Part shown: positions 32,693-38,818 of the stretch, one piece after another | Layout: every line of letters begins with the position of its first letter | Numbering within the stretch: the stretch's first letter is position 1 | Assembly: GCA_904377845.1 (NCBI GenBank) | Contig: CAJFGR010000003.1 | Span: 1-64,000 of the forward strand | DNA: 64,000 bases | DNA from: an uncultured Ruminococcus sp. | GTDB lineage: Bacteria; Bacillota; Clostridia; Lachnospirales; Lachnospiraceae | Reading direction: 5' to 3' | Translations under genes and position numbers: made by a program | Notes under the pieces: generated by a model | What the model saw: only the letters and a program-made list of their open reading frames with translations | The model's database searches: none | Told to the model about the DNA's origin: nothing

Positions 32693-32944
32693 CAGGATAT
32701 ATCAGAATTTGCTTGAATTCCTGATTATTTTATGCTACGATACCGAATGTATGGAAAGCAGATATTTGGAACGTTCTCCATGCAAATATTTTACGCGGCG
32801 TCAAGCTGCATTATTGATTGAGTTAGCGCGGTGTGCACGATATGCATACACAACTTGTGAAACGGTCAATAAGAGTAGTAAAAGTAAAAATATTTGCTAT
32901 ATAGACTCTACGTCCAATATCTGTTATATCTGTAAATCAGACGA
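32693..32944. other. Gene-free AT-rich stretch before the polyamine operon
   Basis: No supported gene. It holds AT-rich DNA in which the polyamine operon promoter must lie; I could not choose one convincing -35/-10 pair. The short open frame here has no ribosome site or recognisable product. Confidence 0.4.
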
Positions 32945-33049
32945 GCCCTCTTGTATAAGAAGGGCGGGATCATAACGCGATATCACACAGGCTGGGTGCA
33001 ATGTGCATCCGGCCTGTTACTTTTTCAGCAATATGGCAGCCGGATGCAC
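32945..33049 (+). promoter_or_regulatory. Candidate attenuator in the speA leader
   Basis: A first hairpin (GCCCTCTT/AGAAGGGC, 32945-32965, one mismatch) is followed by a 14-bp terminator-like stem (32987-33000 with 33004-33017, loop ATG) and a TTACTTTTT tract, which lies 57 bases before the speA start. The 3' half of that stem (33003-33013) can instead pair perfectly over 11 bases with 33039-33049, so two exclusive folds exist. This would let transcription of the polyamine operon be switched; the signal is unknown. Confidence 0.5.
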
Positions 33050-33081: not shown

Positions 33082-34536
33082 ATGGAGAGATCATTACAGA
33101 AGAGAGCGCCGATCTATGAGGCGCTGGAACGTTTCCGGCGGAACAGAGTCGTGCCCTTTGACGTGCCGGGGCATAAGCACGGAAGGGGCAATCCCGAACT
33201 GGTGGAGCTTCTGGGAGAAAGATGCGTCAGCATTGACGTGAATTCCATGAAGCCCCTCGACAATCTGTGCCACCCGGTATCTGTCATCAAGGAGGCGGAA
33301 GAGCTGGCGGCGGACGCATTCGGAGCGGAACACGCATTTCTGATGGTGGGAGGAACGACGTCGGCCGTCCAGACTATGATCCTGTCCTGCTGCAAGAAGG
33401 GAGACAAGATCATTCTGCCGAGAAATGTGCACCGCAGCGCCATCAACGCAATGGTGCTCTGCGGGGCAAAGCCGATTTATGTCAATCCGGACGTGGATCA
33501 GAGACTGGGCATTTCACTGGGAATGAAGCGCGCTGATGTGGAGCGGGCGATTGAGGAGAATCCGGATGCGGATGCGGTGTTCGTCAACAACCCTACCTAT
33601 TATGGAGTCTGCTCCGACCTGAAAGCGATCGTGAAGATGGCCCATGAAAAAGGGATGAAGGTGCTGGCGGATGAGGCACACGGGACGCATTTTTATTTCG
33701 GGAAAAATCTTCCGGTTTCTGCAATGGAGGCAGGAGCGGATATTGCGTCCGTGAGTATGCACAAGTCCGGCGGAAGTCTGACACAGAGTTCTTTCCTGCT
33801 GATCGGAAAGGGGATGCATCCGGGATACATCCGGCAGATCATCAACCTGACACAGACCACAAGCGGTTCCTATCTGCTCCTGTCCAGTCTGGATATCTCC
33901 CGCAGAAATCTGGCGCTGCGGGGGGAGGAATCTTTCCGTATGGTGACGGAACTGGCGGAATACGCCAGAAAAGAGATCAATCAGATCGGTGATTACTATG
34001 CGTTTGGCAGGGAGATGGTAAACGGAGACAGTATTTTCGATTTCGACCCGACGAAGCTGTCCATCCACACACTGGACATCGGACTTGCCGGGATCGAGGT
34101 CTATGACATTTTGAGAGATGAGTACGATATCCAGATCGAGTTCGGAGATCTGGGAAATATCCTCGCTTACCTGTCTATCGGCGACCGGATCCGGGAGGTA
34201 GAGCGGCTTGTGACCGCCCTTGCGGATCTGAAGCGCAGATATAAGAAAGACAAGACAGGAATGCTCTCTCAGGAATACATTGCACCGAAAGTCGTCATGA
34301 CGCCTCAGGATTCCTTTTACGCGGAGAAAGAATCGCTGCCGCTGGAGGAGACGCGAGGCAGGATCTGTTCCGAGTTTGTTATGTGCTATCCGCCGGGAAT
34401 ACCGGTACTGGCTCCGGGCGAGGAGATCACGGATGAGATCATCAATTATATTGTCTATGCGAAAGAAAAAGGATGTTCCATGACCGGGCCGGAAGATGAG
34501 CGGATCGAGCGGCTGAATGTACTGACAGAAAGATAG
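33082..34536 (+). CDS. speA: Orn/Lys/Arg decarboxylase (biosynthetic arginine decarboxylase, SpeA-type)
   Basis: 484 residues, fold-type I PLP enzyme of the short (wing-less) Gram-positive SpeA/YaaO group. FDVPGHKHGRGNPEL marks the N-terminus, DEAHGTHFYF the substrate and PLP region, and K228 in SMHKSGGS is the PLP lysine. The C-terminal domain is present. Arginine decarboxylation to agmatine is the best call because agmatinase is in the same operon; lysine or ornithine decarboxylase remains possible from sequence alone. GGAGG lies 6 bases before the ATG; an in-frame ATG at 33001 lies inside the attenuator hairpin and was rejected. Confidence 0.88.
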   Translation: MERSLQKRAPIYEALERFRRNRVVPFDVPGHKHGRGNPELVELLGERCVSIDVNSMKPLDNLCHPVSVIKEAEELAADAFGAEHAFLMVGGTTSAVQTMILSCCKKGDKIILPRNVHRSAINAMVLCGAKPIYVNPDVDQRLGISLGMKRADVERAIEENPDADAVFVNNPTYYGVCSDLKAIVKMAHEKGMKVLADEAHGTHFYFGKNLPVSAMEAGADIASVSMHKSGGSLTQSSFLLIGKGMHPGYIRQIINLTQTTSGSYLLLSSLDISRRNLALRGEESFRMVTELAEYARKEINQIGDYYAFGREMVNGDSIFDFDPTKLSIHTLDIGLAGIEVYDILRDEYDIQIEFGDLGNILAYLSIGDRIREVERLVTALADLKRRYKKDKTGMLSQEYIAPKVVMTPQDSFYAEKESLPLEETRGRICSEFVMCYPPGIPVLAPGEEITDEIINYIVYAKEKGCSMTGPEDERIERLNVLTER

Positions 34537-34592
34537 AGAAGAGATACGTTTGCAGTGAGATTACATATTTTTGAGAAGGAGTGAGAATCCAT

Positions 34593-35447
34593 ATGGAAAT
34601 GTGGTTTTCGGATATACATACGGACGGTGTGAAGCTGTCCATCCGCATTGAGGAACAGCTCTTCAGCGCCCAGAGCGATATCCAGAGGATTGACGTCCTC
34701 GAGTCGAAAGACTTCGGGAAGATCCTTGTCGTGGACGGTGATCTGATGCTGACCGAGCGGGATGAATTTATCTACCATGAGATGATTACCCATGTGCCCA
34801 TGGCAGTGCATCCGGATGTAAAACGGGTGCTTGTAGTAGGAGGGGGCGACGGCGGAGTCGTCAGAGAGCTGATCAAATATGACACGATAGAGACGATTGA
34901 TGTGGTGGAGCCGGATCCGCTGCTGGTGGAGGTGTGCCGGAAATATATTCCGGAGATTGCCAACAGTCTGACCGACGAGAGGGTGGAGATCTTTAATGAA
35001 GACGGTCTGCGGTTTATCCGGTCGAAGAGCGACGCTTACGATCTGATTATCATTGATTCCCCGAATCCGTTCGGAGCAGGGGAGGGGCTGTTTACAAAGG
35101 AGTTCTACGGCAACTGTTACAATGCGCTCCATGAGGACGGCGTTATGATCAATCAGAACGAGAGCCCCTTCTATACGGAGGAGGCGTTCCAGTGCCAGAG
35201 GATGCACAAGCGGATACTGGAGACATTTCCGATCTGCCGTGTGTATCAGGCACATATTCCTTCCTATCCGTCAGGACACTGGCTGTTCGGATTTGCCTCA
35301 AAAAAATATCACCCGCTGGATGATCTGGACAAGGTGGGATGGAAACTGAAAGGCATCCACACAAAGTATTATGAGCCGAGGCTGCACGCCGGTGTATTTG
35401 CGCTCCCGGCTTATGTGGAAGAGCTGCTGGAGGATGTGGAGAGATGA
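34593..35447 (+). CDS. speE: Spermidine synthase (aminopropyltransferase)
   Basis: 284 residues. The N-terminal beta-domain starts MEMWFSDIHTDGVKLS; the Rossmann domain carries VLVVGGGDGGVVRE (nucleotide loop), VVEPDPLLVEVCRKY and IIIDSPNPFG with the catalytic Asp. It should transfer aminopropyl from decarboxylated SAM to putrescine. No speD (SAM decarboxylase) is present in the window. It sits between speA and speB, 4 bases overlapping speB. The GTG at 34581 is too close to GAAGGAG, so the ATG at 34593 was chosen. Confidence 0.92.
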   Translation: MEMWFSDIHTDGVKLSIRIEEQLFSAQSDIQRIDVLESKDFGKILVVDGDLMLTERDEFIYHEMITHVPMAVHPDVKRVLVVGGGDGGVVRELIKYDTIETIDVVEPDPLLVEVCRKYIPEIANSLTDERVEIFNEDGLRFIRSKSDAYDLIIIDSPNPFGAGEGLFTKEFYGNCYNALHEDGVMINQNESPFYTEEAFQCQRMHKRILETFPICRVYQAHIPSYPSGHWLFGFASKKYHPLDDLDKVGWKLKGIHTKYYEPRLHAGVFALPAYVEELLEDVER

Positions 35448-36340
35448 TGTGGAAAAATACAGTGAATTTTATCGGATGCGATGCAGAGTATGAGGAGGCG
35501 CGTGTCGTGATCTTCGGCGCGCCCTTTGATTCAACGACGTCATTCCGCCCGGGGACACGCTTTGCGGGACAGGCGGTGAGAAATGATTCCTACGGGCTGG
35601 AAATCTACAGCCCGTATCAGGATAAAGAACTGCCGGAAAATGTCGTATACGACTGCGGGGATCTTGAGCTGGCGATCGGCAGTTCCTCAAAAGTGCTAGG
35701 GCAGATCGAGGACTGTGCCCGTGATATTTTAAAGGACGGGAAGCTGCCGTTTATGATCGGCGGCGAGCATCTGGTGACGCTCGGGAGCGTGCGCGCCGCG
35801 GCGGAGAAATATCCGGATATGCATATCATCCATTTTGACGCACACACAGATCTGAGGCAGGATTATCTGGGAGTGGAGCTCTCCCATGCCTGTGTGATCC
35901 GGAGATGCTGGGAAGTGCTGGAGCAGACCGGAAAAAATAGAACAGACGCTGGTGACGGGCGTATCCATCAGTTCGGTATCCGCTCCGGAGAGAGAGAAGA
36001 GTTTGACTGGGCGCGGGCGGGACATACGGATTTCCACCCGTTTACACTGGACGGACTGGATGAGGTGCTGAAACAGATCGGCGATGCGCCGGTGTATTTT
36101 ACGGTGGATCTGGATGTGATGGATCCGTCGGTATTCCCGGGAACGGGGACGCCGGAGCCGGGCGGGATTGATTTCCTTACCGCCATGCGCGGCGTGACGA
36201 AGGTGTGTGAGAGTGTGAATCTGATCGGATGTGATGTAAACGAACTGTGTCCGCCCTGCGATCCGACGGGGGCGTCTACAGCGGCGGCGTGCAAGATCAT
36301 CCGGGAGATGCTCATTGCGATCGGGAACCGGCAGGACTGA
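35444..36340 (+). CDS. speB: Agmatinase
   Basis: 298 residues of the ureohydrolase family: splits agmatine into putrescine and urea using a two-manganese centre. Metal ligands are seen in GGEHLVTLG, HFDAHTDLRQDY and TVDLDVMDPS. Its ATG overlaps the speE stop codon (ATGA), a sign of translational coupling. With SpeA it forms the arginine-agmatine-putrescine route. Confidence 0.93.
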   Translation: MMWKNTVNFIGCDAEYEEARVVIFGAPFDSTTSFRPGTRFAGQAVRNDSYGLEIYSPYQDKELPENVVYDCGDLELAIGSSSKVLGQIEDCARDILKDGKLPFMIGGEHLVTLGSVRAAAEKYPDMHIIHFDAHTDLRQDYLGVELSHACVIRRCWEVLEQTGKNRTDAGDGRIHQFGIRSGEREEFDWARAGHTDFHPFTLDGLDEVLKQIGDAPVYFTVDLDVMDPSVFPGTGTPEPGGIDFLTAMRGVTKVCESVNLIGCDVNELCPPCDPTGASTAAACKIIREMLIAIGNRQD

Positions 36341-36408: not shown

Positions 36409-37611
36409 ATGGGAAAGGTAATGGTAATCGGCTGCGGAGGCGTGGCAAGTGTGGCAATTCATAAAATCTGTCAGAACAGCGAGGTGTTCTCCGAGCTGTG
36501 CATCGCCAGCAGGACAGTGTCAAAATGTGACGCACTGAAAGAGAAACTGCAGGGGACAACGAAGACAAAGATCACAACCGCGCAGGTGGATGCGGATCAT
36601 GTCGATGAACTGACGGCTCTGATCAAAAAGGAGCAGCCGGAGGCAGTCCTGAATCTGGCGCTGCCGTATCAGGATCTGACGATCATGGATGCGTGTCTGG
36701 CGGCAGGTGTTCACTATATCGACACGGCGAACTATGAACCGGAGGATACGGCCAAATTCGAGTATAAATGGCAGTGGGCTTACCGGGAAAAATATGAGAA
36801 GGCAGGGCTTACGGCTCTTCTCGGAAGCGGATTTGACCCCGGAGTGACAAGTGTATTCTCCGCCTATGCACTGAAACATTATTTTGATGAAATAAACTAT
36901 ATTGATATCTTAGATTGCAATGCAGGAGATCACGGCTATCCGTTTGCAACGAATTTCAATCCGGAGATCAACATTCGCGAGGTGTCTGCGAAAGGCTCCT
37001 ACTGGGAGGACGGCCGCTGGGTAGAGACAGAGCCCATGGAGATCAAACGCGTCTATAATTTCCCGGAGATCGGGGAGAAGGATATGTATCTGCTCCACCA
37101 CGAGGAGATCGAATCGCTGGCGCTCAATATTCCGGGAATTAAGAGAATCCGCTTCTTTATGACATTCGGTGAGAGTTATCTGACACACCTGCGCTGTCTG
37201 GAAGATGTGGGGATGACATCGATCGAACCGATCATGTATGAGGGAAAAGAGATTGTGCCGCTGCAGTTTTTGAAGGCAGTACTGCCGGATCCGTCTTCCC
37301 TTGGTCCGAGGACGAAAGGAAAGACGAATATCGGGTGCATTTTCATCGGAAAGAAAGACGGACAGGAGAAGAAACTGTACATCTACAATACGTGTGACCA
37401 TCAGGAGTGCTATAAAGAGGTGGGCTCACAGGCAGTCGCATACACAACAGGCGTGCCGGCAATGATAGGCGCCATGATGGTGATGACCGGCACATGGAAG
37501 AAGCCGGGCGTCTACAATATGGAAGAGTTCGATCCGGATCCGTTTATGGATGCGCTGAATAAATGGGGGCTGCCGTGGAAGATCAGTGAAGATCCGGAGC
37601 TGGTGGACTAA
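36409..37611 (+). CDS. Carboxyspermidine/carboxynorspermidine dehydrogenase (saccharopine dehydrogenase family)
   Basis: 400 residues. N-terminal Rossmann motif VIGCGGVASVAIHK, then the family-typical HYIDTANYEPEDTAKFEY and LLGSGFDPGVTSVF, and the C-terminal GSQAVAYTTGVPAMIGAMMV. It joins putrescine to aspartate semialdehyde using NADPH. The ATG at 36409 has GAAAGGAGA upstream; the open frame reaches back into speB. Its partner decarboxylase follows. Saccharopine dehydrogenase itself is excluded by length and by the polyamine context. Confidence 0.9.
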   Translation: MGKVMVIGCGGVASVAIHKICQNSEVFSELCIASRTVSKCDALKEKLQGTTKTKITTAQVDADHVDELTALIKKEQPEAVLNLALPYQDLTIMDACLAAGVHYIDTANYEPEDTAKFEYKWQWAYREKYEKAGLTALLGSGFDPGVTSVFSAYALKHYFDEINYIDILDCNAGDHGYPFATNFNPEINIREVSAKGSYWEDGRWVETEPMEIKRVYNFPEIGEKDMYLLHHEEIESLALNIPGIKRIRFFMTFGESYLTHLRCLEDVGMTSIEPIMYEGKEIVPLQFLKAVLPDPSSLGPRTKGKTNIGCIFIGKKDGQEKKLYIYNTCDHQECYKEVGSQAVAYTTGVPAMIGAMMVMTGTWKKPGVYNMEEFDPDPFMDALNKWGLPWKISEDPELVD

Positions 37612-37666: not shown

Positions 37667-38818
37667 ATGAAAAAGAGTGAACTCAGAACGCCCTGCTATG
37701 TGGTGCAGGAGCGGAAATTAAGAGAAAATCTGGAAATATTAAGAGAGATCCGCGAGGAGACGGGATGCCATATCGCGACCGCAAGCGGACTCCACGAGGC
37801 AAGGCTGGGATACGAGGAGATGGGAAAGGAAAACCACATCTTCTCACCCGCCTACAAAGAGGAAGAAATGCCGGAGATTCTGAGAATGTGCGATCACATT
37901 GTGTTCAATTCTCCGGCTCAGTTCCGGAAATATAAAAATCTGGTCAGGGGATACGAGACCCGGACAGTCGGGCAGGAAGAAAATTCAAAAACCGCAGGTC
38001 TGTCCGCCAAGAAAGCAGGCGGCAGGAGCATGGGGCTTCGGATTAATCCGGAGTGCTCCACCCAGGAGGGGCACGCCATCTACGATCCCTGCGCTCCGTA
38101 TTCCAGGCTGGGCACTACTCTGGAACGGCTGCAGGCTGAGCTGACAGAGGAGGAAATCTGTGAGCTGGACGGCCTTCATTTTCATACGCTGTGTGAGCAG
38201 AACTCAGATGATCTGGCGACAACATTGAGAGCCGTAGAAGAAAAGTTCGGCAGGTATCTCAGCCGGATGAAGTGGGTAAACTTCGGCGGAGGGCACCATA
38301 TCACGCGGGAGGACTACGACCGTGAGCTGTTGAAGAAATGCATCCGCCATGTAAAAGACACATACGGCGTGGAAGTCTATCTGGAACCGGGGGAAGCTGT
38401 GGCGCTCAATGCGGGCGAGCTGATCACGGAAGTGCTGGAGATCGTGGATAATGGCATGAAGATCGCGATACTGGATACATCTGCGGCGTGCCATATGCCG
38501 GATGTACTGGAGATGCCTTACCGGCCGCCACTGAAAGGGGCGGCGAGCACGGAGGATGCGGATCTGCGTGAGAACAAATGTGTTTACCGTCTCGCCGGGC
38601 CGACCTGTCTTGCCGGAGATGTGATCGGAGATTATGTGTTTGATCATCCGCTGCAGTGCGGGGAACGGTTGGTATTTCAGGATATGGCGATTTATACCAT
38701 GGTAAAGACAAATACGTTTAACGGGATGAACCTGCCGGATATCGTGCTGGAGAAAGAAGATGGCGAGTGCGAGATCGTGAGGACGTTCGGATATGAGGAT
38801 TTTAAGTCGAGGCTGTGA
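37667..38818 (+). CDS. nspC: Carboxyspermidine/carboxynorspermidine decarboxylase, PLP-lysine segment missing
   Basis: 383 residues, alanine-racemase-fold PLP decarboxylase that makes spermidine from carboxyspermidine. Most family features are present: TPCYVVQE start, EARLGYEEMG, FSPAYKEEE, GLRINPECS, HFHTLCEQN, FGGGHHITR, LEPGEAVALNAG, DTSAACHMPD and the catalytic Cys (C314) in GPTCLAGDV. But the stretch between TGCHI (to residue 36) and ATASGLHEARLG (from 37), where NspC proteins have about 23 residues including the PLP lysine (xLALKCFS type), is absent in frame. An insertion of about 18 residues near 105-122 keeps the total length normal. The enzyme is therefore predicted inactive, or changed. 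Confidence 0.85.
   Translation: MKKSELRTPCYVVQERKLRENLEILREIREETGCHIATASGLHEARLGYEEMGKENHIFSPAYKEEEMPEILRMCDHIVFNSPAQFRKYKNLVRGYETRTVGQEENSKTAGLSAKKAGGRSMGLRINPECSTQEGHAIYDPCAPYSRLGTTLERLQAELTEEEICELDGLHFHTLCEQNSDDLATTLRAVEEKFGRYLSRMKWVNFGGGHHITREDYDRELLKKCIRHVKDTYGVEVYLEPGEAVALNAGELITEVLEIVDNGMKIAILDTSAACHMPDVLEMPYRPPLKGAASTEDADLRENKCVYRLAGPTCLAGDVIGDYVFDHPLQCGERLVFQDMAIYTMVKTNTFNGMNLPDIVLEKEDGECEIVRTFGYEDFKSRL

Follow-up and report, generated by a model that had tools for sequence, protein, structure and literature searches.

A probable recent in-frame deletion of the PLP-lysine segment of carboxyspermidine decarboxylase in a Ruminococcus polyamine operon whose leader RNA carries a second deletion

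Carboxyspermidine dehydrogenase (CASDH) and carboxyspermidine decarboxylase (CASDC, or NspC) are encoded in known polyamine operons, including that of pneumococcus, whose gene order we take to be SP_0916, speE and CASDH/NspC. In the C. leptum CASDC (PDB 9eaf), as described in the available part of PMC11866407, PLP sits on Lys43, the Schiff-base lysine. C. leptum CASDH and CASDC operate from agmatine, according to an excerpt of PMC11999265, a route that by analogy would suit an operon holding speB. The accessible portion of PMC7531197 presents pneumococcal SpeE as likewise without a known aminopropyl donor of its own, AdoMet decarboxylase being unannotated there. On the regulatory side, more polyamine riboswitch classes surely await discovery, in the words of the portion of PMC10853860 consulted.

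The window analysed here, a 64,000-nucleotide stretch of an uncultured Ruminococcus sp. (GCA_904377845.1, contig CAJFGR010000003.1, positions 1 to 64,000), carries a polyamine operon on the plus strand. The first gene encodes a speA-like Orn/Lys/Arg decarboxylase of predicted substrate (33082-34536; PF01276, 237 bits), followed by a polyamine aminopropyltransferase, speE, without its speD partner (34581-35447; TIGR00417 over cut-off, PF02675 absent), and an agmatinase, speB (35444-36340; TIGR01230 over cut-off). The CASDH gene (36412-37611) is intact, with PF03435 and PF16653 over cut-off and a match to NF043000 (E 5.8e-126, 421 bits) that stays below the 800-bit cut-off of that model. The initial annotation recognised the next gene as NspC and as the close of the operon, and both hold: CASDC (37667-38818) scores 432.8 bits against a TIGR01047 cut-off of 409.05, and the order is speA-like decarboxylase, speE, speB, CASDH, CASDC.

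This gene is an in-frame deletion allele. Its open reading frame encodes 383 amino acids, compared with 412-464 in the open frames of the nearest relatives, and reads ETGCHI directly into ATASGLHEARLG, as first noted. Sixty-six base pairs present in all four aligned genus relatives (G046, G008, G009 and G025) are missing at the junction 37774|37775, removing 22 residues between I36 and A37 while the frame stays open; the original estimate of about 23 residues and about 69 bases was slightly too large. In G046, the nearest genome found, whose CASDC protein is 96% identical, the absent stretch reads LLAQKAFSMYRVYPLIGRYLDG, and both 50-nt flanks of the gap are at least 98% identical between the two genomes. 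Alignment to 9eaf places the deletion at residues 39-60, Lys43 included, so the in-frame loss of the PLP-lysine segment is borne out by the relatives and by the C. leptum structure alike. The window's genome has one CASDC and no second copy. Besides it, the genome encodes two fold-III decarboxylases, one at C31 and one at C13; the latter (L117, C13:26193-26891), a 407-aa frame, adjoins an AMP-binding adenylation-like protein in a neighbourhood that resembles a small biosynthetic cluster.

The lysine is conserved throughout the relatives. Alignment to homologues, which the initial annotation had proposed as a check, finds the motif LA[QLM]K[ACG]F in 109 of 110 locus proteins, the sole exception being the window's own copy; because some genomes are present in two collections and account for more than one locus, the 109 carriers do not equal 109 independent genomes. 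A survey of 397 family genomes, queried with residues 1-120 of an intact relative, gave 152 matching genomes; among the 150 listed, 149 matches span the lysine position and that of the window's genome alone begins behind it. As a spanning match could conceal a gap, the letters were read for 32 genomes, all of which keep the lysine, one as LAEK. Of the two genomes outside the 150 listed, G360 and G447, the letters of the former were read, and it is this LAEK case. Searched as 22 bases with up to 3 mismatches across the 397 genomes, the exact junction occurs without mismatch in a single genome, the window's; three others match with 3 mismatches, which is the chance level. Relatives with the same gap, which if their enzyme were active had been named beforehand as a refutation, are absent from the 110 locus proteins and the 150 listed family matches. 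Two unusual copies were seen in the family, one, a further broken CASDC, that has TAA and TAG in frame but retains its PLP lysine (L161, G254:C57), and one with a long additional stretch behind the lysine segment in a 504-aa frame (L162, G355:C139).

Beyond the deletion, the mapped active-site residues are preserved, as the initial annotation had remarked for C314 and the other signatures. The alignment to 9eaf, combined with the roles given in the part of PMC11866407 at hand, equates H173 and C176 (38183-38194) with C. leptum His170 and Cys173, D279 (38501-38503) with the substrate-binding Asp276, C314 (38606-38608) with Cys306 and Y343 (38693-38695) with Tyr335; E240, G242 and E243 (38384-38395) correspond to the contacts to the PLP pyridine and phosphate. 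All eight C. leptum residues (His170, Cys173, Glu237, Gly239, Glu240, Asp276, Cys306 and Tyr335) are identical in the window CASDC. The position named Gly236 in that part of PMC11866407 is Leu in both chains of this alignment and was left unscored. AlphaFold gives mean confidences of 81.7 for the shortened protein and 81.2 for an intact relative; since these are equal, the prediction offers no sign of misfolding, and as a folding test it decides nothing.

We consider it quite likely that the CASDC deletion is real and biological. An assembly or library artefact, with the strain's gene intact and 66 bases skipped by the assembler, is unlikely, though several observations are compatible with it. 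Both deletions are known from a single assembly of 74 contigs, the one available genome of the species, and the remaining CASDC gene is undecayed. Microhomology amounts to 0-1 bp at most at the CASDC and leader RNA junctions, which is unusually little for slippage deletions. The window's genome (G000; 520,000 bases taken) could be aligned with G046 over 151,767 bases; in these, if both flanks must reach 90% identity, G000 has 5 clean gaps of 20 bp or more and G046 has 2. Another clean 66-bp gap is at G000:C9:2891 and one of 34 bp at C14:15261, so that such losses occur elsewhere in the window's genome. The gap counts vary by filter, from 27 versus 18 with unfiltered flanks to 8 versus 5 at a mean flank identity of 0.88. 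Against an artefact, the gap ends contain no repeat for a short-read assembler to collapse, and the lengths of both internal coding losses seen (CASDC and C9) are divisible by three, a property that an artefact would not have to show. Moreover, of the seven clean gaps three lie in the polyamine operon and its leader, counting an insertion in the speB of G046, so clean gaps seem dense in the operon, by a small, after-the-fact count.

Two candidate readings of these gaps were discarded. The 42-bp difference in speB is an insertion in G046 rather than a loss in the window, as three outgroups also lack the 42 bp. A hairpin-driven deletion was rejected, the intact 141-nt strand being no better folded than its shuffles (z -0.45). 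At the other sites, with genes named by eye, the 66-bp gap (L256:2891) is in frame and falls within a membrane protein gene that adjoins a sigma-factor-like one, the 34-bp gap (L261:15261) takes away what is probably the start of a ThiT-like transporter, and a 134-bp gap (L198:3373, C3:103373) lies upstream of a flavin-reductase-like gene.

The remainder of the gene dates the event. Whole CASDC genes of the window and G046 differ by 48 synonymous and 16 nonsynonymous changes, the latter mostly in variable linkers. Once codons near alignment gaps are dropped, 339 remain; of the changes in them, 19 synonymous and 2 nonsynonymous fall on the window branch and 19 and 1 on that of G046, and 2 synonymous changes are unplaced. 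Because CASDC has ~3.45 nonsynonymous sites per synonymous site, ~60 nonsynonymous changes would be expected had the gene been unconstrained for the whole branch; by this arithmetic, the two found suggest that constraint was lifted during no more than roughly a tenth of the branch. Faster evolution of the window CASDC was rejected, with dN/dS values against three outgroups of 0.125, 0.097 and 0.082, compared with 0.150, 0.097 and 0.094 for G046 (the relatives' frames run from one stop to the next, hence some upstream codons are counted). Since the remainder of the gene is undecayed, the loss appears recent. Among genus relatives, the stretches 37943-38030 and ~38530-38580 of CASDC are highly variable in length and sequence.

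Taken with the deletion itself, these results make it likely, to a degree just short of our confidence in the deletion being real, that the window CASDC is a recent loss-of-function allele, with control of the operon probably also broken. Its product is most likely a dead enzyme rather than a new one, judging from the sequence. The new role proposed in the initial annotation, taken here as a PLP-independent one such as regulator, scaffold or CASDH partner, is very improbable: the open frame, the lack of a nonsynonymous excess on the window's branch and the retention of all other mapped active-site residues would accord with it, but a central barrel piece is gone, the gap is common to no relative examined, and recent loss yields the same pattern. 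Continued activity with a substitute lysine can be dismissed almost outright, the kept family score (432.8 bits) being its sole point, set against the loss of the lysine-bearing strand and the absence of a similar gap from all relatives read.

For the dead-enzyme reading, we envisage the following course. The clean 66-bp deletion, if real, took one strand-helix unit of the PLP barrel together with the Schiff-base lysine. Lacking this lysine and this part of the barrel, the product would be unable to bind PLP in an internal aldimine, and folding into the native dimer would most likely fail. Whatever the intact CASDH makes, be it carboxyspermidine or the agmatine counterpart, would then go no further, so that the expected block of the carboxyspermidine branch follows plausibly from the missing lysine segment. 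The cell may depend on imported polyamine, and PotA of the polyamine importer is over cut-off in the window's genome.

SpeE offers no obvious bypass, because AdoMet decarboxylase (PF02675) is over cut-off in 0/58 genus genomes, the window's genome included; a single weak partial match under the cut-off, in G010, contains a stop. For the same reason, SpeE is without a known aminopropyl donor made in the cell, and its role as a bypass was rejected. The 38 of 58 genus genomes with SpeE over cut-off are also the 38 with CASDC, and SpeE in the genus is, by gene content, an apparent orphan aminopropyltransferase always found with CASDC. The genus has probably lost speD, since this gene, over cut-off in 10 class-level loci, lies there between the leader RNA and speA. 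The SpeE protein is 100% identical between the window and G046 despite a dS of 0.22. Genuine CASDC is missing from 20/58 genus genomes (19 unmatched, and G049 with a weak match of 23% identity), so the genus tolerates losing the pathway, and as a gene loss that of CASDC is of a kind already known.

The second lesion, which like the genus-wide lack of AdoMet decarboxylase over cut-off escaped the initial annotation, lies upstream of speA, in a conserved leader RNA whose core survives as a remnant at 32791-32909 (plus strand; model R1, 78.8 bits). At the junction 32826|32827, 34 bp are missing (32 against G046), so that helices 3, 4 and 5 each lack at least one strand, a total of 21 of 47 pairs. 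Between the leader and speA, the window keeps an intrinsic terminator-like hairpin with a T-run (32987-33017, plus strand; 14-pair stem, -24.1 kcal/mol), and a terminator scan of the leader found 2 against 0.3 expected. The score of 78.8 bits compares with 142-169 in eleven near relatives and Bacillus copies. A low score is not unique to the window; divergent leader copies score 60-95 bits yet retain helices 3 and 4, and in L035, L045, L041 and L054 (60-73 bits) the strands lost in the window are retained. The 34-bp loss occurs in no other copy compared, and the core is held by 29/29 other genus leader loci fetched. The operon thus bears two clean lesions, in CASDC and in the leader RNA. With strands of three helices missing from the RNA, control of the operon is probably broken, and both lesions would be young on the branch since G046, as the remaining operon is undecayed.

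The leader RNA extends well beyond this operon, to further Bacillota. It is conserved in 42/58 genus genomes, and its core also stands upstream of CASDH in Bacillus loci. Five genus genomes have the leader without CASDC; four of them carry it ahead of potA and permease genes, and the fifth stops at a contig end. The model, built from 33 sequences with a core of 146 positions, matches 46 of 391 class genomes, and in all 30 class-level loci fetched from these (L219-L248) a polyamine gene lies downstream: speA in 20 (10 with speD between), potA in 8 and CASDH in 2. Seven of the eight PotA proteins were scanned and all exceed the TIGR01187 cut-off, L240 lying outside the scan. In covariation alignment A6, which comprises 40 copies fitted to the model, 97.4% of cells are paired, compared with at most 42.2% on sliding, and 17 of 47 pairs changed on both sides, values reached by 0/500 shuffles. 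A terminator-like hairpin follows within ~170 nt in 40/42 leader copies, by a self-defined criterion without shuffled control.

As a whole, the leader RNA is outside Rfam. RF02440, of 54 nt, exceeds its gathering score in three Bacillus-type loci (L027, L046 and L069), where it sits just 5' of the core and leaves the core itself uncovered; among L112, L002, L115 and the window leader it matches none, and the scanned Lachnospiraceae copies likewise lack it. No SAM riboswitch family is among the Rfam matches of the element at E up to 5. The odc1 motif, in the part of PMC8632094 available an alphaproteobacterial hairpin, differs from the leader RNA and was rejected. Literature on ldcC RNA, polyamine riboswitches and potABCD structured RNA, mostly non-subscription papers, contained nothing on this leader. 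Covariation and gene context make the leader RNA a good candidate polyamine-responsive riboswitch, one not described so far. The fuller proposal is more tentative, and we hold it at slightly below even: an undescribed terminator-coupled, polyamine-sensing riboswitch may act over synthesis (speD-speA, speA, CASDH) and uptake (potABC) across Bacillota, with the window's genome as a natural knock-out of the switch core and the last enzyme.

The RNA matters more than the gene loss, as a widespread, covarying leader with polyamine genes in every class-level locus fetched, and the window's genome is a ready natural deletion mutant of it. In polyamine production, the genome resembles a double knock-out made by nature. 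The CASDC deletion implies a species that ought to rely on spermidine from outside, which for gut cross-feeding is a clear prediction open to testing, and it exposes the orphan SpeE.

Compared with known systems, the window protein resembles NspC/CASDC (TIGR01047; PDB 9eaf and 3n29) in sequence family, operon position behind CASDH and mapped active-site residues, and differs from 9eaf in lacking residues 39-60 and the PLP lysine. It shares the absent PLP lysine with fold-III decarboxylase mutants such as T. brucei ODC K69A (PDB 2tod); those of the K69A type are single laboratory substitutions, whereas here an entire strand-helix unit is gone in nature. The SpF59 sRNA (ldcC RNA) of RF02440 matches the stretch adjoining the core in three Bacillus-type loci, but covers only 54 nt without the conserved core. 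The SAM-I-variant spermidine riboswitch, as the excerpted text of PMC10853860 describes it, is likewise a leader RNA before polyamine genes with a terminator; it has a SAM-I fold, whereas the window-type leader matches no SAM family. Pneumococcus combines an arginine decarboxylase-type enzyme, speE and a CASDH/NspC route in one genome, as the window's does, with CASDC intact there as far as the available portion of PMC7531197 says.
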